The position numbers were made by a program, and so were the translations under genes. Positions 7,559-16,738 of a stretch of 17,400 nucleotides of DNA are shown one piece after another. Source of the stretch: Dactylosporangium sp. AC04546. Its GTDB lineage: Bacteria; Actinomycetota; Actinomycetes; Mycobacteriales; Micromonosporaceae. Positions within the stretch are counted from its first letter, which is position 1, and each line of letters begins with the position of its first letter. The notes under the pieces were generated by a model, which had not been told where the DNA came from, made no database searches, and was given only the letters and a program-made list of their open reading frames with translations. The stretch covers positions 1-17,400 of the forward strand of contig NZ_JAHYSG010000174.1 of the NCBI RefSeq assembly GCF_022095675.1. Reading direction: 5' to 3'.

Positions 7559-8779
7559 TCACCGCAGGCCGGGGATCAGATCCGTGTCCGTCCTGGTCTG
7601 CTCCTCCAGCTCGGCCAGCAGGCGGGTCGTCGCCTGGGACACCGCCGCGTCCAGCAGGCGCTGCTCGCGGACCACCGTTTCCAGTCCGGCGCCCGCGACG
7701 TCCGTCGCCGCCTCGGTCACCCGGAGCTCCTGGTGATGGCGGCGCGTCTCGGACAGCTCGCGGCGGCGGGCGTCGCGGGCCTCCGCGCGCTCGTAGCCGT
7801 TGCCGTGCGACACCAGCTTCAGCCACACCGCGGCGCAGTCCAGGCAGACCAGCAGCGCCGCCACACCCAGGTAGAAGAAGCCGAAGCCCCAGAAGTCGCG
7901 CTTCACCAGCTCCCACATCGCCGCCGTGCGGGCGCCGAAGCCGGCCGCCGCCTCGACGGACGTCCGGTTGCTGGTGCGCTGCGCGTCGACCTGCTCGTTC
8001 AGCGCGGTGATCTGGGTGGCGCGGGATTGGCGGGCCGCTTCCTGGGCCGCCCGGACCGTCGATGCCTCCTGATCGAGCCGCGTCGCCTCCGCGTTCAGCG
8101 ACCGGGACTGCTGGACCAGCGCGTCGCAGAAGCCCCCGGACGGGCAGCCGGTGCGGCGGCTCACGCCCGCCGCCCGGGAGTCGGCCAAGGCCTGGTCGTA
8201 GGCCTCGGTGGCGGCCGCCCGCTTCGCCTCGGCGAGCCGGTGCAGGCCGGTCACGGCCTCGTCGTCGGCCGCGTCCTGGGCCCGCAGCCCGTCGATCTGC
8301 CGCTGGAAGGCGGCGATGGCGCCGCCCTGCTCCAGGCGGGCGAGCTCCTGGTTGTGGACGGAGCCGAGGTACGCGTCGATCTCGCCCTTGTAGCGGGCGA
8401 GCATCAGCGGCTCCGTGATCACGATCGCGAACAGCAGGGCGAGCACCATCCGCCCGGCGTAGAGCCCGGCCGTGCGGCGCCGCAGCAGCCGGTGCGGGTC
8501 GGCGGACTCCAGGTGCTCGTAGTTCACCGCCACCCGGCCGACCACGGCCCGGTCGTAGGCGATGACGGCGGCCGCCACCGGCGGGCCGACCAGCCACTGC
8601 CACCAGGGGTGGGCGTAGTTGGTGGACGCGTCGACGAAGGACGCGGCACCGACGACCGCGTACCCGCCGTACAGCAGGATGAAGATCCCGATGGAGCGGT
8701 ACAGCGCTCGATCGGTGTGGGTCAGCACGTTCGCCGGGTTGACGTTGGCGACCCTGAGGAGGAAGGAGCGCCCGGCCAT
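7559..8779 (-). CDS. DUF4407 membrane protein with long periplasmic or cytoplasmic coiled coil
   Basis: A 406-residue protein of the DUF4407 family, function unknown. Hydrophobic segments lie at about 29-48, 61-78, 108-127 and 296-320. Between the third and fourth is a long Ala/Glu/Arg/Gln-rich helical stretch (140-285) predicted to form a coiled coil, holding two cysteines (Cys212, Cys218). A second charged helix (330-395) follows the last membrane segment. NVNPANVLTHTDRALYRSIG (12-31) and AVIAYDRAVVGR (71-82) resemble conserved N-terminal family motifs. The ATG at 8779 was chosen as the frame upstream runs through the urt remnants. It is co-oriented with the glycoside hydrolase gene, with about 100 bases between. 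Part of the coiled-coil region is duplicated at 122-350. Confidence 0.88.
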   Translation of the reverse strand: MAGRSFLLRVANVNPANVLTHTDRALYRSIGIFILLYGGYAVVGAASFVDASTNYAHPWWQWLVGPPVAAAVIAYDRAVVGRVAVNYEHLESADPHRLLRRRTAGLYAGRMVLALLFAIVITEPLMLARYKGEIDAYLGSVHNQELARLEQGGAIAAFQRQIDGLRAQDAADDEAVTGLHRLAEAKRAAATEAYDQALADSRAAGVSRRTGCPSGGFCDALVQQSRSLNAEATRLDQEASTVRAAQEAARQSRATQITALNEQVDAQRTSNRTSVEAAAGFGARTAAMWELVKRDFWGFGFFYLGVAALLVCLDCAAVWLKLVSHGNGYERAEARDARRRELSETRRHHQELRVTEAATDVAGAGLETVVREQRLLDAAVSQATTRLLAELEEQTRTDTDLIPGLR

Positions 8780-8844
8780 GCGCTCGACGCTACGCGAGGA
8801 TAAGTCACATTTGCGGGGTTTTCGGATAACAACGTGCCACCCCC

Positions 8845-8907
8845 GGCCTGGACCTCGGCGACCGTCCCCTGGCAGAGCAGCCGCCCCTCGTGCAGCACCG
8901 TGATCCA
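8845..8907 (-). pseudogene. urtD: Remnant of UrtD C-terminus (urea ABC transporter ATPase)
   Basis: Read on the minus strand this gives WITVLHEGRLLCQGTVAEVQA, matching the last strand and helix of UrtD/LivG-type ATPases (VTVLHxGxxLxEGxxxxVQ). Only some 21 residues remain, without Walker A, Walker B or signature motif, so it cannot be functional. It points away from the UrtE remnant next to it, although urtD and urtE are normally consecutive on one strand. UrtD rather than another branched-chain-type ATPase is inferred from the neighbour. Confidence 0.6.
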
Positions 8908-8937
8908 CGTCGACCGACTCAACCGAACAAGGCCGGC

Positions 8938-9240
8938 TTCCTGTCCGGCGGGCAGCAACAGCAGCTGGCGATGGCCCGCACGCTGTTCACCCGCCCGTCG
9001 ATGCCGCTGCTGGACGAGCCGACCGAGGGCATCCAGCCGTCGGTGATCCTGGAGATCGAGGCGGCGATCGAGCGGCTGCACAAGGAGACGGGCGTGGCGG
9101 TACTCCTGGTCGAGCAGTACCTCGACCTGGCCCTGCGCCTGGCCGACAACTTCGTGATCATGGACGCTGGCGAGGTCGTCCGCGGCGGCGACCGCGAGGA
9201 CCTCCAGGACCCCGCGGTGCGCCGGCTGCTCACGGTGTGA
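8938..9240 (+). pseudogene. urtE: Remnant of UrtE (urea ABC transporter ATPase), C-terminal part only
   Basis: About 100 residues carry the ABC signature LSGGQQQQLAMART, Walker B PLLDEPTEGIQPSVI, the H-loop-region VLLVEQYLDLALRLADNF, and a normal end (VRRLLTV). QQQQLA, EGIQPS and VEQYLD are diagnostic of UrtE. Walker A and everything before the signature motif are missing, and the frame further upstream has no similarity to the family, because it is antisense to a UrtD fragment. Full-length UrtE is about 230 residues. The remaining frame is undamaged, suggesting a fairly recent rearrangement. An ATG at 8890 would open this frame but lacks a credible context. Confidence 0.85.
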
Positions 9241-9325
9241 GTCGCAGGTCCTAACCCGTGATCGTGACCAGGGAGCCGAAGGACAACCTGTCTGATGCGT
9301 TCGGCTGGCGGCAAATACTAGGCAC
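9241..9325. other. Intergenic gap between convergent urtE remnant and GNAT gene
   Basis: A seven-base inverted repeat (AGCCGAA at 9274-9280, TTCGGCT at 9300-9306, 19-base loop) lies between the two convergent stops and could act as a weak bidirectional terminator. Nothing else is seen. Confidence 0.3.
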
Positions 9326-9817
9326 TCAGAGCGTTTTCACCAGAACCCGACATTGTTCCGGCACGTGGACCTCTTGGCCGTTCTCGATGACGATGTAGTA
9401 CGTGTCGAGCAGGCCATGTAGCCATTGATGGTAGCCGAGCCGCAGGTAAAGACGTTCGGCGGCGAAATTGTCGATATCCATACCCAAAGCGAGTTGGGCG
9501 TGGCCGCGCGCCCGAACAGCCTGTTCGGCAGCCGTCACCAGTGAGCTGCCGATTCCCTGGTTTCGCAGCTCGGAGACCACGAGTAGGCGATGCATCAGCG
9601 GTACGCCGGGGAGGTGCTCTCGGAGGCCGGCCTCGTCGGCTTCCTCGAATGCTATGTAGACGCAGCCCACGGCGTTTCCGGACAGCCAGGCGAGCAGCAG
9701 CAACCCACGTTCGTCCCGCTGCCGCGCCCGCCGTTCGGCGAAGAATGTGGCGCTGCCCAGCCTTGGGTCGATCGCGTCGAGGTCGGCTTCGGTCACGGGT
9801 CGGATCTCGATCGTCAT
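9326..9817 (-). CDS. GNAT family N-acetyltransferase
   Basis: A 163-residue acetyl-CoA-dependent acyltransferase. It opens with MTIEIRPVTEADLDAI, typical of GNAT beta-1/alpha-1. NAVGCVYIAFEE covers strands 2-3, then comes MHRLLVVSELRNQGIGSSLVTAAEQ with the acetyl-CoA loop RNQGIGSS (Q/RxxGxG/A). NFAAERLYLRLGYHQW is the usual closing helix and strand. The substrate is unknown. The ATG at 9817 has a GGGAG Shine-Dalgarno ten bases away. Third-position GC (33 of the first 40 codons) is lower than that of the flanking host genes. It is divergent from the caspase locus and may belong to the same imported segment; a direct functional link is not shown. Confidence 0.9.
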   Translation of the reverse strand: MTIEIRPVTEADLDAIDPRLGSATFFAERRARQRDERGLLLLAWLSGNAVGCVYIAFEEADEAGLREHLPGVPLMHRLLVVSELRNQGIGSSLVTAAEQAVRARGHAQLALGMDIDNFAAERLYLRLGYHQWLHGLLDTYYIVIENGQEVHVPEQCRVLVKTL

Positions 9818-9899
9818 GCCGGCATGGCTCCCATCGTGCGGCTCAAACCGTTGGTGCAGTTCACCTGCCGACGGCTGTCCCGGCGAAGCAACGATCGCT

Positions 9900-9905
9900 A
9901 GTATA
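9900..9905 (-). promoter_or_regulatory. Possible -10 element of the GNAT gene
   Basis: The minus strand reads TATACT, five of six bases of the consensus -10 box, about 80 bases upstream of the GNAT start in an otherwise GC-rich region. No convincing -35 box was seen at the usual spacing (TTCCCG is nearest). Confidence 0.3.
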
Positions 9906-10047
9906 TTGGCGGAGCTGATCGCCGGGAATGCGGACATTTCAGGATGGTGGGATGCGCGAAGACGAGGCCGTGGTCGAGGCACGTCATTCCTGCCGTCCGA
10001 TACCTCCGCAACGCAAGGTCGTTCGCCTGGGTGTTTCTCACGTTTGG

Positions 10048-10077
10048 CGATGTGTCATCTGTGGTCACGACACATCG
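10048..10077. promoter_or_regulatory. Perfect 9-base inverted repeat upstream of the caspase locus
   Basis: CGATGTGTC (10048-10056) and GACACATCG (10069-10077) are exact reverse complements separated by 12 bases. The centre-to-centre spacing of about 21 bases (two helical turns) fits a dimeric repressor operator. It lies 31 bases before the proposed start of the first gene of the two-gene locus, in a stretch with non-coding-like composition. It could also form an RNA hairpin. Confidence 0.45.
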
Positions 10078-10107
10078 AGTCCGCCAGTCGACGGTCCTGA
10101 CTCCAGA

Positions 10108-10797
10108 GTGACTGCGGGGGAAGTGGGATGGGCCGGCCCGGTCGTGCGGCGTGCGGCGGCGGCCACCCTCGCTATCGTCGATGAGCAAACGGTCGGCGCT
10201 GCTGCATCGGAACCGGAGATAGTGCGTCTCGCGGCCGATCTCCGAACGGCAGTGCAGCGCGGCGCGGGCGACGCGGACCTGCTGATCCTGACCCAGTGGC
10301 TGGTTGACGCGGCCTCTCGATCCGGGCTGGCTCCGGAGGTGGGATCGGCGCATGCCTTGCGTAGCCTCGGACATCTCTCGGTCGAGGACGGCGAGGTGGT
10401 TTACCGCGAGCCGGACCTTGGCGTTGTTGCTGACGTCGCCGTTGATCTCGCTGGTCTGCTCGCCGGTGGAATCGCCGGCAACGCGGCATACGAGCTGCTC
10501 AAGCACGCTGCCGGGAGCTTCCGTCGGCGAGTTGTGACTGCTGGTGAGGTGTCGGCTCGGCAGCCGGTGACACCGTTGGCGAGGTCTGACGCCCTGAGCG
10601 TCGCGCTCAGTGCCGTCGCGAACGAATGGCCGGAGTACGGCCCTGCGTTGGGTCGGTTCTCCGTGCGGCAGGAGCAGCGCACATCGGACGGCCGCTGGCG
10701 GTTCGTGTTCGCCTGCGGACGTGACGTATTCGTCGCGTACGTGCCGCCGGGTGAGCCGTCACTCGACCGCGTCGAGCTGCACCGGCAGGGTTCCTGA
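10108..10797 (+). CDS. Unrecognised protein, probable partner of the caspase-STAND-WD40 protein
   Basis: I do not recognise this family. As called it has 229 residues: a mostly helical N-terminal part rich in Ala, Leu and Asp, a glycine- and alanine-rich hydrophobic stretch (DVAVDLAGLLAGGIAGNAAYELL, here about residues 110-132) that might insert in or associate with a membrane, a basic segment (SFRRR), and a C-terminal region of about 70 residues with beta-type pattern (GRWRFVFACGRDVFVAYVPPGE). It ends 30 bases before the caspase gene, so the two surely share a transcript. The start is uncertain: GTG at 10108 is chosen because third-position GC rises there from about 56% to about 75%. Alternatives are ATG 9952 (AGGA seven bases upstream), GTG 10123 and GTG 10144. 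Confidence 0.6.
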   Translation: MTAGEVGWAGPVVRRAAAATLAIVDEQTVGAAASEPEIVRLAADLRTAVQRGAGDADLLILTQWLVDAASRSGLAPEVGSAHALRSLGHLSVEDGEVVYREPDLGVVADVAVDLAGLLAGGIAGNAAYELLKHAAGSFRRRVVTAGEVSARQPVTPLARSDALSVALSAVANEWPEYGPALGRFSVRQEQRTSDGRWRFVFACGRDVFVAYVPPGEPSLDRVELHRQGS

Positions 10798-10827
10798 CCG
10801 CGCACTTGGCTCAAGGAGACCATCGAC

Positions 10828-13800
10828 ATGGCTGACGAGGCTCCCCGGCGCATCGTCGTGATCGCTCCGGATGGATACCCGTCGTTCAACGCCGACTTTC
10901 GGACCGGGCTGGACGAGCAGATCGACGTCGTGGTCAGTTGGTTTCGCGGACCGGAGGTGGAGTCCGCCGCGTGCCGGCTGTCGGTGTTGCGCCCGACCAG
11001 CCTGCATCAGCTGGAGGATCTCGTCCGAAGCGAGGACCTCGCCGGTCTACATAAGGACCAGCCGACAGTCCTGTACATCACCGGACATGGCGTACAAGAC
11101 TCCTCCCGTCGGCATTTCCTGCTGTTCCCGGCGTCACAAGAAGGCAGCTTGCGCAACACCGCACTCGTGACCGCGGATCTTGTCGAGTCGGTCCTCTCCT
11201 CCGCGTCCGAGCAGATCCTGGTGTTCGTCGACTCCTGCCATGCCGGGGCGCTCCACGCCGAGCTCGCGGAACGACTGCGTTCGTTGCCGCCGGATCGCCG
11301 CCGCCTGAGAACCATCGCCGTGATCACGGTTGGCGATTTCGACGAGAAGCCCCGCGTCGGGGAGTTCGCAGAGATCCTCTTCAAGCTCTTCGAGCGTTTT
11401 CGCAGCCCGCAGAACGGCTACGTCCAGCAGTATCTGTCGTTCCGTGATCTCGCCTTCGAGATGGCGAACCTGTTCGAGGAGGAGGACTCCTTACTCGAGC
11501 CGCTGTGGGTCTGGCCGCGATCATCGCCAACTCCGGTGGCCACTCGCTGTATCCCCAACCCTGGATACCAGCCGATGAGCCCGATCGTCGAACCTGCCCG
11601 CCAACAGCTCGCCCAGGCGTTTTCGACGGAGCCCTACTGGCGCAGCCGAGCGTCCGGCCAGTACTCGGACCTCGCGGCCGGCTGGTACTTCTCCGGGAGG
11701 CGACGCATTCTTCAGCAGCTCAGCGCCTTCCTGTTGCACGACGCGGGTACGGCGATCGTCACGGGTGAGGCTGGCAGCGGCAAGTCGGCGATCCTTGCAC
11801 AACTCGCGGTGCTGACCGATCCGACCTTCCGTGAGCGTCCAGAATTCCATGTCGCCGTCCAGCGATTCGGTGCTGAGCTGATCCCGCCGCTCGCCTCCGT
11901 CGATGTCGCCCTGTACCTGCACAATCTCCCGCTCGAACAGGTCGTGGGGCAGCTGGCGGAGTTGCTGGCGGTGGCACCCGCTCAAGCGCCGGGCGAAACC
12001 GTCAACCGCCTGCTCGCGCACTTCCAGTCGCGTGCTGCTGTGACCACCATTGCCTTCGACGGGCTTGACGAGGCGGTGCAACCAGAGGCGGTCATCTTCG
12101 ACGTCATCGGCCGGTTTCTTGCCGTGGCGGATGCGGAAGGGCGGCCGCTCGTCCGGCTGCTCGTCGGACTACGTTCCGAGCGTCCTACCGACATATCCGA
12201 GCCGAACCACGGCGGGTTGCTCGGGCTTTTGGTCAGGGTCGCCGAGAACGCCCGTCCGGACGACGCGCCGCTGGTGCTGCGGACCGACCGTTCCGCGGAC
12301 GTCACCAGCGATATCGCGGAGTACGTCGAACGGATTCTGACGGAAGGCGCCGGCGAAGGAGCGTTCGTCCGCCGCGACCGTGAGGTCGAGCGTGCGGCAC
12401 ATGCCATCGCGGAGGCAGTGAGCCCGTCGTTCCTCGATGCACGATTCGCGGCCGCGAGGCTACGCGCCTCGGGTGACATACGGCGGGCCACGTCAGCTGC
12501 CTTCCTCGGTCGTCTTCGCGCCGGCACCCTAGAACTGTTCAAGTCGGACGTCCAGGAGGAATCTCGCCGCCTGGGTGTCGCCGCAGACCGCATCGTCGGC
12601 GTTCTGCGGGCGGTGGCTTTCGCCGGCGGCGCCGGTCTTCCGTGGGCCGGGGTCTGGGAGAGGGTGGCCGCAGCGTTGATCGACGACCCGGATCTGCGCC
12701 CGGAAGAGGTGGGCCGCATGATCGCGGCCATCCAGCGAGGGCGGTTGTCGGGATACCTCGCGTCGGGGATCGAGGATGAGCGGGTCGTCTACCGTCCCGC
12801 GCATACTCGGATCGGCGAGATCCTGCGCAACGACCCAGAGCTGATCGCCCCGCGATCGGAGTCGCTCACGGCTTTGGACCCAGACGAGCGGTTCGACATC
12901 GCCAGCAACCATCGAGCTATCGCCGAGGCGCTGCTGGCTCAGTACCGGCAGGGGGCTGATGAGTTCGGCCCGCACCCGTACGTCCGCCGGCATCTGGTGC
13001 GGCACGCGGCGTTGGGTGGGGCGCTCACCGACGGGACGGTGCCGGTCGACTTCCTGCCCTGGGAAACCAGCGGGCAGGTTCGGAAGCTGATCATTCAGGG
13101 AGTCGGTGACGACGCATCGATCGTCGGCCTCCACGCGTGGGCTCTTGCCGAGCCATACCTAGGCGATGCGGATCAGCCGTCCCGTCGATCGACCCTGGCG
13201 TTTCAGTTGGTCGCGTCTGGCAGCGACGACCATTCGGCCGTGCTCGCGCCGGTCGTGCACACCAGATGGGTCAACTGGCGTGGCGAGTTTCGGCACGTGT
13301 CAGGCTGGGATTCACCGACCTGGGCGGTACTGCCTTTGGTTCGCGGCGACGGACGCTGCGTCGTCGCGGCAGCCTCGACTGATTGCAGTATCAGACTGGT
13401 CTCGCTCGACTCCGGCACTGAAGTCTGCCCACCTCTGCTTGGTCATACCGGACGGGTGAGAGCGTTCGCACACGCCTGGCTGGATGACCACGAGTTGCTG
13501 CTGTCCGGTGCCGATGACGCGACGGTGCGTGTTTGGGACCTGGCGACCGGTCGCGCGTCAGGGGTGCCGCTCATTGGTCACCATGGCTCGGTTACTGCGA
13601 TCGCGACGGTGCGGTTCGGCGACTTGGATCTGCTGGCCACCGGCTCGGTTGATGGCTCCGTGCTGTTGTGGGACATCAGATCGCGGGAGCGGTTCGGCGA
13701 CCCGCTCGTCGTGCTCGGCAGCGCTGTCTTCACGTTGGCCGTAGCCAAGGCAGGTGGCTACCCGATCGTCGTCGCGGGTGCCGTGGACGGGACGATCCGC

Positions 13801-15174
13801 CGGTGGGGCGTTGCCGACGGCATCGAGATCGGCACCCCGATCCAGGCTTACGTCCGGAGTGTTGTTGTGGCGCGGATCGGTTCGCGGGCGGTGATCGTCT
13901 CCGGGGGAGAGCAGGGCGCATTGGTCTGGGATCTGATCACCGGTGATCAGATCGGTGAGCCGTTCGATCGGCATCGCTACGGTGTGTGGGGTGTCGACGT
14001 CGTCCACCGCGAAGGACGCCCGACCGTGCTCTCAGCCGGTGGCGACCGTGACATCCGGGTGTGGGACTTGGAGACCCGGCAAGAGCTGTCCGCGCCCCTT
14101 GTCGGCCACGAGCGTGGTATCCACGAGCTGGTCACCGCGACCGTGAACGGCCGGCCGATTGCCGTCTCGGCCTCGCTGGACACTACCGTCCGTGCCTGGG
14201 ACGTATTGTCCTTGCGCGAGTTTGACGGGCTCCTGCTGGGCTCGGCAAACGTCGTCAACGCTGTCGACGTGCTCCAGCGCGACGGCCAGGCGGTCGTGGC
14301 GTGCGGCAGCAGCGATACTGCGGTGACCCTCCTCGACCTCGAGACCGGCCAGTTCCTGGAACGGCTCCCCGTGGGCCATACCCGAGGGATTAACGCCCTC
14401 GTGCAGGTCGACGACACGTCGACCGTGACTGGCGCTGAAGACGGGTTGGTCATTGTGGCGCGCTTGTCCGGCGATATGGCCGGGCAGCGGCACATCCTTG
14501 ACGCCGGTGCAGGGCCGGTGACTTCTGTCGATGTCATTGCGGTTGAGGGACGCGACCTGATCCTCGCCGCGTATGAGGATCACGTGGTACGCATCTGGGA
14601 TATCGACGCTTTGGTGGAGGCCGGACCCGAGGTTCACCATCACGCGGGTGCGGTCCGCGCGGTCCGAGCCGTTCGGCTCGGTGGGCGTCCAGTGGCGGTG
14701 AGCGCGGGCGATGACCGCATGGTGTACGTCTGGGATGTCCGGTCCGGCGAACTCGTTCTCCCGCCGCTCGCGGGCCATAACGATTGGATTCTTGGTCTGG
14801 CGACGCTCGAGCTCGACGACCGGCTCGTCATCGTCTCAGCGAGCGACGACCGCACCGTCCGTGTCTGGGATGTGGAGAACGACCAGGTGCGCGAGTCGAT
14901 CATCCGCGGCCATACGGGATGGGTCAATAGTGTGGCTATCGGCATGATTGGCGGCCGGATCGTCGTGGCGTCGGCCGCGGACGACCAGAGCGTCCGCATC
15001 TGGGACGTTGAGACAGAAGCCGAGGTGCACCGCGTAGTCGTCGGCTCGCCGATGTTGTCGATGAAGTTCGTTCCGGTCGTCGGTTCGGCTGACGTTCGAC
15101 TGGTGATGGGCGGCATCGCCGGTGTCGCGCAGCTCGCAATCGGGCCCGATGTCTTCGGGGATGGCGCCATATAG
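10828..15174 (+). CDS. Caspase-like protease / STAND NTPase / 14-blade WD40 protein
   Basis: A 1448-residue multidomain protein. Residues about 8-200 form a caspase-like (peptidase C14) domain: the catalytic His is in YITGHGVQ (His87) and Cys in VFVDSCHAG (Cys137). A linker with GWYFSGR (285-291), a motif seen ahead of STAND P-loops, leads to Walker A GEAGSGKS (313-320), Walker B IAFDGLDE (408-415) and a sensor-like LLVGLRSERP (444-453), then a helical STAND region to about 740. From about 830 to the end are 14 WD40-type units of about 45 residues, most ending in VRVWD-like strands, consistent with two seven-bladed propellers. By family logic the propellers sense a ligand, the NTPase oligomerises and the protease is activated. 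The start has AAGGAG at 10813-10818. Third-position GC is low (28 of 40 sampled codons). The exact trigger and protease target are unknown. Confidence 0.93.
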   Translation: MADEAPRRIVVIAPDGYPSFNADFRTGLDEQIDVVVSWFRGPEVESAACRLSVLRPTSLHQLEDLVRSEDLAGLHKDQPTVLYITGHGVQDSSRRHFLLFPASQEGSLRNTALVTADLVESVLSSASEQILVFVDSCHAGALHAELAERLRSLPPDRRRLRTIAVITVGDFDEKPRVGEFAEILFKLFERFRSPQNGYVQQYLSFRDLAFEMANLFEEEDSLLEPLWVWPRSSPTPVATRCIPNPGYQPMSPIVEPARQQLAQAFSTEPYWRSRASGQYSDLAAGWYFSGRRRILQQLSAFLLHDAGTAIVTGEAGSGKSAILAQLAVLTDPTFRERPEFHVAVQRFGAELIPPLASVDVALYLHNLPLEQVVGQLAELLAVAPAQAPGETVNRLLAHFQSRAAVTTIAFDGLDEAVQPEAVIFDVIGRFLAVADAEGRPLVRLLVGLRSERPTDISEPNHGGLLGLLVRVAENARPDDAPLVLRTDRSADVTSDIAEYVERILTEGAGEGAFVRRDREVERAAHAIAEAVSPSFLDARFAAARLRASGDIRRATSAAFLGRLRAGTLELFKSDVQEESRRLGVAADRIVGVLRAVAFAGGAGLPWAGVWERVAAALIDDPDLRPEEVGRMIAAIQRGRLSGYLASGIEDERVVYRPAHTRIGEILRNDPELIAPRSESLTALDPDERFDIASNHRAIAEALLAQYRQGADEFGPHPYVRRHLVRHAALGGALTDGTVPVDFLPWETSGQVRKLIIQGVGDDASIVGLHAWALAEPYLGDADQPSRRSTLAFQLVASGSDDHSAVLAPVVHTRWVNWRGEFRHVSGWDSPTWAVLPLVRGDGRCVVAAASTDCSIRLVSLDSGTEVCPPLLGHTGRVRAFAHAWLDDHELLLSGADDATVRVWDLATGRASGVPLIGHHGSVTAIATVRFGDLDLLATGSVDGSVLLWDIRSRERFGDPLVVLGSAVFTLAVAKAGGYPIVVAGAVDGTIRRWGVADGIEIGTPIQAYVRSVVVARIGSRAVIVSGGEQGALVWDLITGDQIGEPFDRHRYGVWGVDVVHREGRPTVLSAGGDRDIRVWDLETRQELSAPLVGHERGIHELVTATVNGRPIAVSASLDTTVRAWDVLSLREFDGLLLGSANVVNAVDVLQRDGQAVVACGSSDTAVTLLDLETGQFLERLPVGHTRGINALVQVDDTSTVTGAEDGLVIVARLSGDMAGQRHILDAGAGPVTSVDVIAVEGRDLILAAYEDHVVRIWDIDALVEAGPEVHHHAGAVRAVRAVRLGGRPVAVSAGDDRMVYVWDVRSGELVLPPLAGHNDWILGLATLELDDRLVIVSASDDRTVRVWDVENDQVRESIIRGHTGWVNSVAIGMIGGRIVVASAADDQSVRIWDVETEAEVHRVVVGSPMLSMKFVPVVGSADVRLVMGGIAGVAQLAIGPDVFGDGAI
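13390..15140 (+). repeat. Coding repeat: 14 WD40-type units of about 135 bases
   Basis: The unit-ending strands fall at residues near 855, 900, 945, 990, 1031, 1076, 1121, 1166, 1208, 1254, 1299, 1344, 1389 and 1433, a steady step of 41-46 residues. Units 2, 3, 5-7 and 10-13 retain Trp-Asp or a close form; unit 4 has Trp-Gly; units 1, 8, 9 and 14 have lost the Trp. Units 10-13 are the most alike, each with the SA(x)DD(R/Q)xVxxWDV pattern. Confidence 0.85.
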
Positions 15175-15186
15175 CCCGAATATGGC
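15166..15186. repeat. Small inverted repeat over the caspase-gene stop codon
   Basis: GCCATAT (15166-15172) and ATATGGC (15180-15186) are exact reverse complements with a 7-base loop and include the TAG stop (15172-15174). The stem is weak and not followed by T residues, so terminator function is doubtful. The rest of the 94-base gap to the next gene holds only a small GAGT-AAAA-ACTC palindrome at 15208-15219. Confidence 0.3.
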
Positions 15187-15254
15187 CTCGTGTTTCGAGC
15201 CGACCCTGAGTAAAAACTCCTCCAGCGTGGTATGCCATGTGGACGGCACCGTGT

Positions 15255-15260
15255 GGAGGT
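15255..15260 (+). promoter_or_regulatory. Ribosome binding site deciding the GCS2 start
   Basis: GGAGGT, eight bases before the ATG at 15269. It rules out the longer in-frame reading that would overlap the end of the caspase gene from 15122. Confidence 0.85.
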
Positions 15261-15268
15261 GGCATCCC

Positions 15269-16738
15269 ATGGGCAAGGACGTCGAGACCCGCGAGTTCAG
15301 TCGCGAGGACCGCATGCGGTACCGGGACAAGGTGCGCCAATGTCTCGATGCCTTCGCGCGGATGCTCGCCGAGTCGTCGTTCGAGGACGGCCGCGGGATG
15401 AGCGGCCTGGAGATCGAGCTCAACCTGGTCGACGAGGACTACGACCCCGCGCTGCGCAACCAGCGCGTGCTCGACGCGCTGGCCGACCCGGCGTTCGTGA
15501 CCGAGCTGGGGCAGTTCAACATCGAGATCAACGTGCCGCCGCAGCAGCTGCGGGACGAGGGGCTGGCCAGGTTCGAGGCGCAGGTGCGGGAGAGCCTCAA
15601 CGCGGCCGAGGAGCACGCCGCCGGTGTCGACACGCGGCTGGCGATGATCGGGATTTTGCCGACGCTGCGCCGCGACCAGCTCACGCCTGACGTGCTGAGC
15701 GCCAACCCGCGGTACGCGCTGCTGAACGAACAGATCTTCACGGCCCGCGGCGAGGACCTGCTGATCGCCATCGACGGCGTCGAGCGGCTGCACGTGCGGT
15801 GTGACTCCATCGCGCCCGAGGCCGCCTGCACCTCGGTCCAGTTCCACCTCCAGGTCCCGCCGCAGCAGTTCGCCGCGCACTGGAACGCGGCCCAGGCGAT
15901 CGCCGCCGCGCAGGTCGCGCTCGGCGCCAACGCGCCGTTCCTGTTCGGCCGGGAGCTCTGGCGGGAGACCCGGATCCCGCTGTTCGAGCAGGCCACCGAC
16001 ACCCGCGCCGAGGAGCTGAAGTCGCAGGGGGTCCGGCCCCGGGTCTGGTTCGGGGAGCGCTGGATCACCAGCATCTTCGACCTGTTCGAGGAGAACGTGC
16101 GGTACTTCCCCGCCCTGCTGCCGATCTGCGAGGAGGAGGACCCGATCGCCGCCCTCGACGCGGGCGAGGTGCCGCACCTGGGCGAGCTGCGGCTGCACAA
16201 CGGCACCGTCTACCGCTGGAACCGGCCGATCTACGACGTGGTCGACGGGCGGCCGCACGTGCGCGTCGAGAACCGGGTCCTGCCGGCCGGACCGACCGTC
16301 GTCGACAGCATGGCCAACGCCGCCTTCTACTTCGGCCTCGTCCACCGCCTCGCCGAGCAGGACCGGCCGGTCTGGACGCAGATGTCGTTCGGCGTCGCCG
16401 AGGAGAACTTCCACACCGCCGCCCGCCACGGCATCGACGCCTCGCTGTTCTGGCCCGGCCTCGGCTCGGTGCCGGTGACCGAGCTGGTGCTGCGCCGCCT
16501 GTTGCCGCTCGCCTACGAGGGGCTCGACGGCTGGGGCGTCGCGCCGGCGCACCGCGACCGGCTGCTCGGCATCATCGAGCAGCGCTGCCTGGCCCACCGC
16601 AACGGCGCCTCCTGGCAGGTCGAGACCGTGCACGCGATCGAGGGCGCGGGGCCGGTGGGGCGGGACGACACGATGCGCAAACTGCTCCAGGAGTACCTTC
16701 CGAGGATGCATTCGAACGTCCCCGTCCACGAATGGTGA
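15269..16738 (+). CDS. Glutamate-cysteine ligase family (GCS2) protein
   Basis: A 489-residue member of the GCS2 carboxylate-amine ligase family, which joins the gamma-carboxyl of glutamate to an amine in an ATP-dependent step. GMSGLEIELNLVDEDYDP (about 46-63) holds the metal-binding Glu residues of the first family motif. ELGQFNIEINVPPQ (about 80-93) is the second conserved strand pair. SVQFHLQVPPQQFAAHWNAA and GANAPFLFGRELWRETRIPLFEQ are typical of the core, and RVENRVLPAGPTVVDSMANAAF contains the late arginine motif. This long actinobacterial type is usually annotated only as glutamate-cysteine ligase family; the true amine acceptor is not certain, and a role in thiol or ergothioneine precursor supply is only possible. 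Codon use is strongly GC-ending (39 of 40 sampled). Its stop overlaps the next start. Confidence 0.9.
   Translation: MGKDVETREFSREDRMRYRDKVRQCLDAFARMLAESSFEDGRGMSGLEIELNLVDEDYDPALRNQRVLDALADPAFVTELGQFNIEINVPPQQLRDEGLARFEAQVRESLNAAEEHAAGVDTRLAMIGILPTLRRDQLTPDVLSANPRYALLNEQIFTARGEDLLIAIDGVERLHVRCDSIAPEAACTSVQFHLQVPPQQFAAHWNAAQAIAAAQVALGANAPFLFGRELWRETRIPLFEQATDTRAEELKSQGVRPRVWFGERWITSIFDLFEENVRYFPALLPICEEEDPIAALDAGEVPHLGELRLHNGTVYRWNRPIYDVVDGRPHVRVENRVLPAGPTVVDSMANAAFYFGLVHRLAEQDRPVWTQMSFGVAEENFHTAARHGIDASLFWPGLGSVPVTELVLRRLLPLAYEGLDGWGVAPAHRDRLLGIIEQRCLAHRNGASWQVETVHAIEGAGPVGRDDTMRKLLQEYLPRMHSNVPVHEW

Follow-up and report, generated by a model that had tools for sequence, protein, structure and literature searches.

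What does a small gene do that stands just ahead of a large gene for a caspase, a nucleoside triphosphatase (NTPase) and WD40 repeats, and are both genes needed? The question is raised by a locus of the soil actinobacterium Dactylosporangium sp. AC04546, in a stretch of 17,400 nucleotides (the window) that is the entire contig C174 of a 13.0 Mb assembly with an estimated contamination of 11.5%. Most flanking stretches of the contig are matched at 88-94% by the genus genome G106 and, judged by its sequence, the contig belongs with its genus. Both genes are real; they lie on the plus strand in the same frame, with 30 bases between 10797 and 10828, as an earlier note on this DNA had described them (frames 10108-10797 and 10828-15174), and AAGGAG stands before the ATG of the second. 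We propose, with slightly less than even confidence, that they form a two-gene conflict or programmed-cell-death cassette, in which sensing and a switch would free a caspase to act either directly on its partner or by way of it. The coordinates of all features are collected in Table 1.

Domain architecture of the large protein

The N-terminal domain of the large protein is a predicted, divergent caspase. The two catalytic residues claimed earlier were read directly, His87 in a TGHG and Cys137 in a DSCHA context (GHG and D-x-C contexts), and together with Lys319 they are invariant in 30 aligned sequences including the window (30 of the 32 protein-search matches; P0033 and P0035 were left out). 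The best NCBIfam match of the domain is NF047832, caspase_w_EACC1 ('caspase, EACC1-associated type'), with E 7.2e-10 and a score below the family cut-off. The large protein is absent from the six matches of its own genome to Pfam Peptidase_C14 (PF00656) at E up to 0.001, and residues 1-280 gave no match to PF00656 up to E 10, CHAT alone being reached (E 0.017).

The STAND-like NTPase that follows contains the intact P-loop of the earlier description (GEAGSGKS with Lys319) and the Walker B motif TIAFDGLDEA; Gly313, Gly316, Gly318, Lys319, Ser320, Asp411, Asp414 and Glu415 are invariant in the same 30 sequences. Its Pfam matches were AAA_16 (E 3.6e-06), NACHT (5.6e-04) and nSTAND, all below the Pfam cut-offs, in a scan of the first 821 residues.

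The count of 14 WD40-type blades was likewise reproduced, and these probably form two seven-bladed propellers. Between the window and two distant relatives the WD40 part is the least conserved (15.5 and 19.9%, versus 34.6-37.1% for the caspase and STAND parts), as is expected for a sensor. When the comparison is made with two near relatives from Dactylosporangium, the WD40 and STAND parts differ to a similar degree (50%, 53.5%), the caspase being at 78-79%. A PADLOC scan of the two genes alone gave a match of the WD40 region to HEAT-ARM_XIII and weak P-loop matches; an annotated PADLOC system was rejected, as nothing beyond these was found. The domains support the earlier placing of the protein among caspase-NTPase-WD40 proteins of a putative conflict or cell-death kind.

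Genes adjoining the relatives of the large gene

The large gene is patchily distributed, being present in 58 of 354 family genomes (E up to 1e-20, its own included). In order to see what accompanies it, neighbouring genes were first viewed by eye and then scored with profiles for which 16 hydrolases from the viewed loci served as input; gaps were taken between the longest open frames, and many are therefore negative. The first sample, which left the window itself aside, comprised 87 loci positive for STAND; the caspase profile was present in 58 of them and absent from 29. L036 and L032 duplicate L067 and L064 and were not counted, the near-identical L022, L024 and L026 were counted separately, and the places G083:C9, G128, G135, G153, G248, G305 and G308 were not fetched.

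Of the 58 loci with the caspase profile, 52 have an alpha/beta-hydrolase-type gene no more than 500 bp away: a hydrolase of about 290 residues in 39, an LCAT-like one in 12, and in one (L160) the former together with an EACC1 match. EACC1 alone was found in two loci, and neither hydrolase nor EACC1 in four. In the mixed locus it is a different caspase gene that carries the EACC1 match; upstream of the hydrolase-caspase-STAND pair, L160:4915-6528 encodes a further caspase protein, which has an EACC1-like segment. The second sample came from one genus, taken to be Streptomyces, in which 31 of 392 genomes were positive at E up to 1e-60. Its 37 places gave 29 loci that were read (L235-L263), L189 and L191 having been counted already and six being without a locus; some of these loci end short upstream, and named Streptomyces loci of the first sample may overlap with its genomes. 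The hydrolase was present in 28 of the 29, the exception (L253) beginning at a contig end.

Two of the longer hydrolases (L027, L078) exceed the LCAT cut-off of Pfam; the four shorter ones scanned matched alpha/beta-hydrolase families below the cut-offs only, with a GHSLGSV motif read by eye. The 12 control loci without a STAND gene, where results cover the first hydrolase profile and the small-protein profile, contained no match for the first hydrolase profile among the matches listed. The hydrolase genes are mostly upstream on the same strand, the others divergent or downstream. In L064, L067, L189, L190 and L246-L249 the LCAT-like hydrolase and caspase genes are divergent, and this recurring orientation suggests that the two may be connected through common regulatory DNA and not as an operon. 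By eye, trypsin-like and MoxR-like frames were also noticed in Streptomyces pilosus (L022:1-4959, minus strand), a few kb from the hydrolase-caspase pair; these are perhaps a VMAP ternary system.

On the 17.4 kb of the window no frame matches either hydrolase profile at E below 0.05. The earlier note had argued from the tight spacing that both genes are needed, and had named absence of the small protein beside most homologues of the large one as evidence that would overturn this. The small protein is absent from all 58 caspase-positive loci and from all 29 loci of the second sample. Thus it is not needed by the family generally, and is a partner in one lineage.

Apparent replacement of the partner gene

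The history of this pairing was followed with a midpoint-rooted tree of the STAND part (61 rows), from which eight of the 58 caspase-positive loci were dropped (STAND stretch below 300 residues) and to which ten P proteins and the window were added. Three rows, those of the window and of two Dactylosporangium proteins, group together as a single clade (100/100). For these two proteins the label 'small' is based on contig sizes and not on observed adjacency, since in both genomes the small and large proteins are recorded on contigs of equal size (595,332 and 170,333 bases). The clade nests within a 17-row clade that holds seven rows with the first kind of hydrolase, one LCAT-like row and six unlabelled rows. 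Since this clade stands among hydrolase-linked rows, the hydrolase was apparently displaced by the small protein. The two EACC1-linked rows (L156, L158) form a separate clade (100/100), to which a hydrolase-linked row attaches (100/96). In the simplest reading the hydrolase seems to have been replaced once by the small protein and once, separately, by EACC1.

A bolder generalization, which is possible but rather unlikely, would be that the partner gene is a plug-in socket, with the alpha/beta-hydrolase as default, replaced at least twice: by EACC1 and by a new HxC...CxxC + G-x-x-G-N-x-A family. If so, the partner in the window would be a new type of caspase-released executioner. Kaur et al. 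2020 (PMC7159879, cited here and below from excerpts) state that the EACC1-caspase pair is not exchanged; the placement of the EACC1-linked rows bears on this statement, and with such a socket the pair would be exchanged, contrary to print.

The small partner protein

The start of the small gene, placed by the earlier note at GTG 10108 (open frame 10108-10797, plus strand, 229 residues), is probably too late. The 52-residue N-terminal extension that begins at ATG 9952 is homologous to the relative in genome G038 (local score 64; shuffled sequences averaged 21.6 with standard deviation 4.1, and none of 1000 shuffles scored as high). This homology, together with the AGGA before the ATG, makes 9952 the most likely start, and the gene probably begins there. 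Against it, the third-position guanine-cytosine (GC) content of the extension is 0.56 versus 0.75, and in the public records the relatives from Dactylosporangium and Actinoplanes are given later starts. The 281-residue form alone contains an HxC...CxxC element, absent from the 229-residue version, which could possibly bind metal as a zinc knuckle.

The small protein was earlier called unrecognised, and this is borne out: it has no acceptable match in Pfam, NCBIfam or PADLOC, where nothing beyond a zinc-finger match with E 0.21 was obtained. A bacterial gasdermin, TIR or nuclease partner was rejected, none being given by these three databases. A degenerate hydrolase was rejected as well, there being no GxSxG and the small frame standing outside the best hydrolase-profile matches listed.

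At least two Dactylosporangium proteins (51 and 47%) match the small protein besides itself in a database of 5.8 billion proteins, and a second protein search gave at least three Actinoplanes relatives; those listed are P0002, P0003 and P0036-P0038. Both searches scored the best 8000 candidates sharing most words and, with the window included each time, returned at least three and at least four family members. Relatives occur in four of 354 family genomes and three of 394 class genomes, again with the window included. The module of glycine-rich helix and VRxExRTxxGxWRFVF-type segment recurs, variably degraded, in L072, L073, L074, L111 and L112, in L074 after a part with weak TPR matches. In L111 (7771-10456) a relative of the C-terminal module (258 residues) lies beside a WD40-repeat frame on the opposite strand. 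The invariant residues of helix and C-terminal segment in Table 1 were read from eight aligned small-protein sequences, window included.

These properties have to be weighed against the possibility that the partner serves as input and not as output, that is, as a membrane-associated sensor or scaffold which activates the caspase, whose targets would be other proteins; it would then be a functional stand-in for EACC1 or a very distant relative of it. In its favour, true EACC1 genes (Pfam E 2.5e-17 and 1.3e-17) stand 46 and 16 bp before the caspase-STAND genes of L156 and L158, and a role as membrane sensor was proposed for EACC1 in the excerpts of Kaur et al. By eye the layout is similar, with a WL-containing helix, a glycine-rich hydrophobic helix, arginines and strands; the hydrophobicity of the window's helix (1.85) is close to the EACC1 median of 1.87 (n=26, range 0.64-2.18); and the alignment by hhalign to a profile of 26/28 EACC1 matches is roughly co-linear (P 0.005 and 0.0065). 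However, the hhalign probabilities are only 7.2 and 5.8%, Pfam EACC1 does not match the partner even at E up to 10, and the partner is more than twice as long as the EACC1 model and carries the N-terminal HxC...CxxC. The small frame is not among the best four matches listed for the EACC1 profile on the window. Identity of the partner with EACC1 was rejected, neither the Pfam scans nor the profile-profile comparison giving acceptable support, and we regard the input role as doubtful.

The partner might also act as an inhibitor, or as a regulator of the immunity type, and keep the caspase inactive until an infection upsets this control, as would suit a small upstream gene tightly coupled to a protease gene and a small protein with its own lineage-specific history. 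Against this, its place is usually occupied by a hydrolase or EACC1, and relatives of the small protein are found without a caspase. To our knowledge neither hydrolase nor EACC1 is an inhibitor. We consider this role improbable.

Proposed mechanism

In the two-gene cassette that we favour, the WD40 propellers would bind a sign of attack and so release the STAND-type NTPase switch, which would assemble and activate the N-terminal caspase; the activated caspase would then act on, or through, the co-encoded partner. Since the partner of most relatives is a lipase-like alpha/beta-hydrolase, what the caspase usually sets free as output is probably an enzyme, perhaps one directed at membrane lipids. 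In the Dactylosporangium-like lineage the small protein would replace the hydrolase and most likely take over its place in the output; processed by the caspase and perhaps associated with the membrane, it would serve as an effector or as an adaptor for one. This assignment of sensor, switch, caspase and output partner is drawn from analogies: in the excerpts of Kaur et al. the caspase of the VMAP systems always has a neighbouring alpha/beta-hydrolase gene, and according to excerpts of a 2025 paper (PMC12799240) proteases, and a caspase, activate co-encoded proenzymes in phage defence.

Several observations weigh against it. The caspase reaches 38.7 bits on NF047832, far under the cut-off of 140 (even the EACC1-linked L156 protein scores just 43.8). 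Where the caspase profile is lacking (29 STAND loci), the LCAT-like hydrolase is present in 14 loci and no hydrolase in 15. The hydrophobic Gly/Ala-rich stretch, from which the earlier note had derived a possible membrane action, is real in the window (peak 19-residue Kyte-Doolittle mean 1.85), but the helix of the relatives is clearly weaker (1.17-1.56). The small protein has neither a GxSxG motif nor an enzymatic domain known to Pfam or NCBIfam, so that its output role follows from position only. In L156 and L158 the same place is held by EACC1, a sensor in the view of Kaur et al., and this speaks for a sensor or adaptor role. Five other regions with relatives of the small protein (L072-L074, L111, L112) showed neither the STAND profile nor a caspase-STAND gene nearby; the surroundings of P0037 and P0038 lie outside this check. 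Finally, a literature search among papers with an open licence showed none testing the function of any family member. The same literature showed none that, by title or start of abstract, concerns the small partner or a system of caspase, STAND, WD40 and hydrolase. Systems of these types have been described before; what seems to be new is the partner and the swap.

Genomic slot of the pair

The pair lies in a variable slot. In all six other genus genomes it is bordered by the DUF4407 region on one side and the GCS2-type ligase gene on the other, and the contents between them differ. In two of these the slot is empty or nearly so, the flank matches being 68 (G104) and 413 (G102) bases apart; G103, G105 and G106 hold an acetyltransferase gene and a two-gene pair. 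The GC content of the cassette region is 64-68% in 1-kb windows, versus 68-76% to its left. The variable slot and the lower GC content place the pair in a hot spot, where it was probably acquired. Both genes are single copy in their own genome by protein search, and the large gene has no paralogue there at E up to 0.001.

This setting bears on a further alternative, by which the locus would be a developmental or stress regulator and not a defence system, acting for example in controlled lysis during differentiation. Of the related EACC1 systems, 650 of 671 in a table of Kaur et al. belong to multicellular organisms, which fits development too. However, the patchy presence, the lack of a paralogue, the variable slot and the strongly diverged WD40 parts of distant relatives fit a mobile conflict gene better, and a developmental role seems quite unlikely.

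No tRNA gene is present in the window, and the slot ends share just one common 8-mer as a direct repeat. The sigma-70 promoter scan of 9750-15300 gave a single match, on the minus strand within the large gene, and the terminator-like sites numbered four versus 2.4 expected. Positions 8890-9240 are a 3' remnant of an ABC transporter ATPase gene; the same slot in G103 holds an apparent longer transporter operon with an 89% identical stretch. A fragment near the contig start (118-335) matches the DUF4407 region (window 7559-8908) in three of the six genus relatives (L229, L230, L232), so part of the DUF4407 gene seems duplicated. In three genus genomes the slot is filled by the two-gene pair (reverse complements of L229, L230 and L231, about 7980-10450), which by eye encodes a helix-turn-helix regulator-like protein and a protein with an 'AVIVPTARP...VVLCS' stretch. 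Homologues of this pair (42-45% identity) lie near the G038 relative of the small protein (L072:6410-8625), and the pair is possibly another mobile conflict cassette.

Table 1. Features of the locus and of the EACC1-linked loci, positions referring to the window unless a locus is named.
Feature	Position	Strand	Basis or details
Large gene, 1448 residues	10828..15174	+	Open frame and profile matches
AAGGAG ribosome-binding-like site of the large gene	10813..10818	+	Read directly, ahead of ATG 10828
Divergent caspase domain, residues 1-262	10828..11613	+	His87 11086-11088, Cys137 11236-11238
STAND-like NTPase, about residues 270-800	11635..13227	+	P-loop 11764-11787, Walker B about 12058-12072
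14 WD40 blades	13285..15171	+	Pfam WD40 family E 2e-37; 14 repeat motifs, spacing 41-46 residues
Small partner gene, most likely extent, 281 residues	9952..10797	+	ATG 9952; AGGA 9941-9944, 7 nt upstream
HxC...CxxC element, candidate zinc knuckle	9985..10062	+	His12, Cys14, Cys34, Cys37; common to the G038 relative
Glycine-rich hydrophobic helix, then arginines (LGVVADVAVDLAGLLAGGIAGNAAYELLKHAAGSFRRR)	10417..10530	+	Gly173, Gly176, Asn177, Ala179 invariant
Conserved C-terminal segment (VRQEQRTSDGRWRFVF...)	10660..10794	+	Trp249, Phe251, Val252, Val264, Pro269 invariant
Variable genomic slot holding the cassette	8827..15207		Left DUF4407 gene, right GCS2-type ligase gene
Genuine EACC1 genes	L156:7378-7767, L158:9544-9966		Pfam PF19953; before caspase-STAND genes nested in the hydrolase-linked group

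Comparison with known systems

The earlier note could not match the locus to a named defence type. For the partner this holds, but the locus as a whole is nearer to the EACC1 system and to the caspase-hydrolase pairs than was claimed. In the EACC1 two-gene system (System 4 in the excerpts of Kaur et al. 2020; PF19953, NF047832) a small 5' gene encodes a glycine-patched hydrophobic helix, likewise in the window, and the 3' gene encodes an N-terminal caspase with a variable C-terminus in which STAND NTPases and repeats are possible, a description that suits the STAND-like NTPase and WD40 parts here. NF047832 is the best NCBIfam match of the caspase, yet with a score far under its cut-off; the partner in the window is not detectable as EACC1, is longer and has the cysteine element; and the closest kin of the large protein are hydrolase-linked.

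This last property is shared with the caspases that neighbour an alpha/beta-hydrolase gene in the VMAP systems, in that the relatives of the large gene are nearly always paired with a hydrolase; caspase and alpha/beta-hydrolase domains are also both named among the GAP1-N1 effectors in the same excerpts (PMC7159879). There the caspase is fused to VMAP, whereas here it is fused to STAND and WD40 parts, and by two profiles the window contig is without a hydrolase gene. As to the MoxR-vWA-VMAP ternary system, no MoxR, vWA or VMAP is among the Pfam matches listed for the ten window proteins (for the large protein, 25 of 47 families and a scan of its first 821 residues), the contig ending 2.2 kb downstream.

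In the Canu caspase-nuclease, Hachiman and AVAST nuclease-protease pairs, as far as the excerpts of PMC12799240 describe them, a caspase or a fused protease adjoins the effector that it activates and partners exchange between systems. They differ from the window in that no nuclease was found here, in their Ig/TPR parts as against STAND-WD40, and in that the window is known from its genes alone. Caspase homologues in bacterial immunity are also named in these excerpts for gasdermin, NLR, Thoeris and type III CRISPR systems, and a caspase homologue is what the window has in common with them; Pfam on the ten window proteins and PADLOC on the two genes alone showed no gasdermin, TIR or CRISPR component.

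If the cassette works as proposed, one sensor-switch-protease module would run on interchangeable output parts, and a natural swap in one lineage would separate the module's own action from that of its partner. Comparison of the hydrolase, EACC1 and the new protein would allow the role of the partner as substrate, sensor or regulator to be asked. The caspase-hydrolase pairing of the known systems would be extended to a large STAND-WD40 gene set, and lipid-directed caspase cell death in filamentous actinobacteria would become testable.

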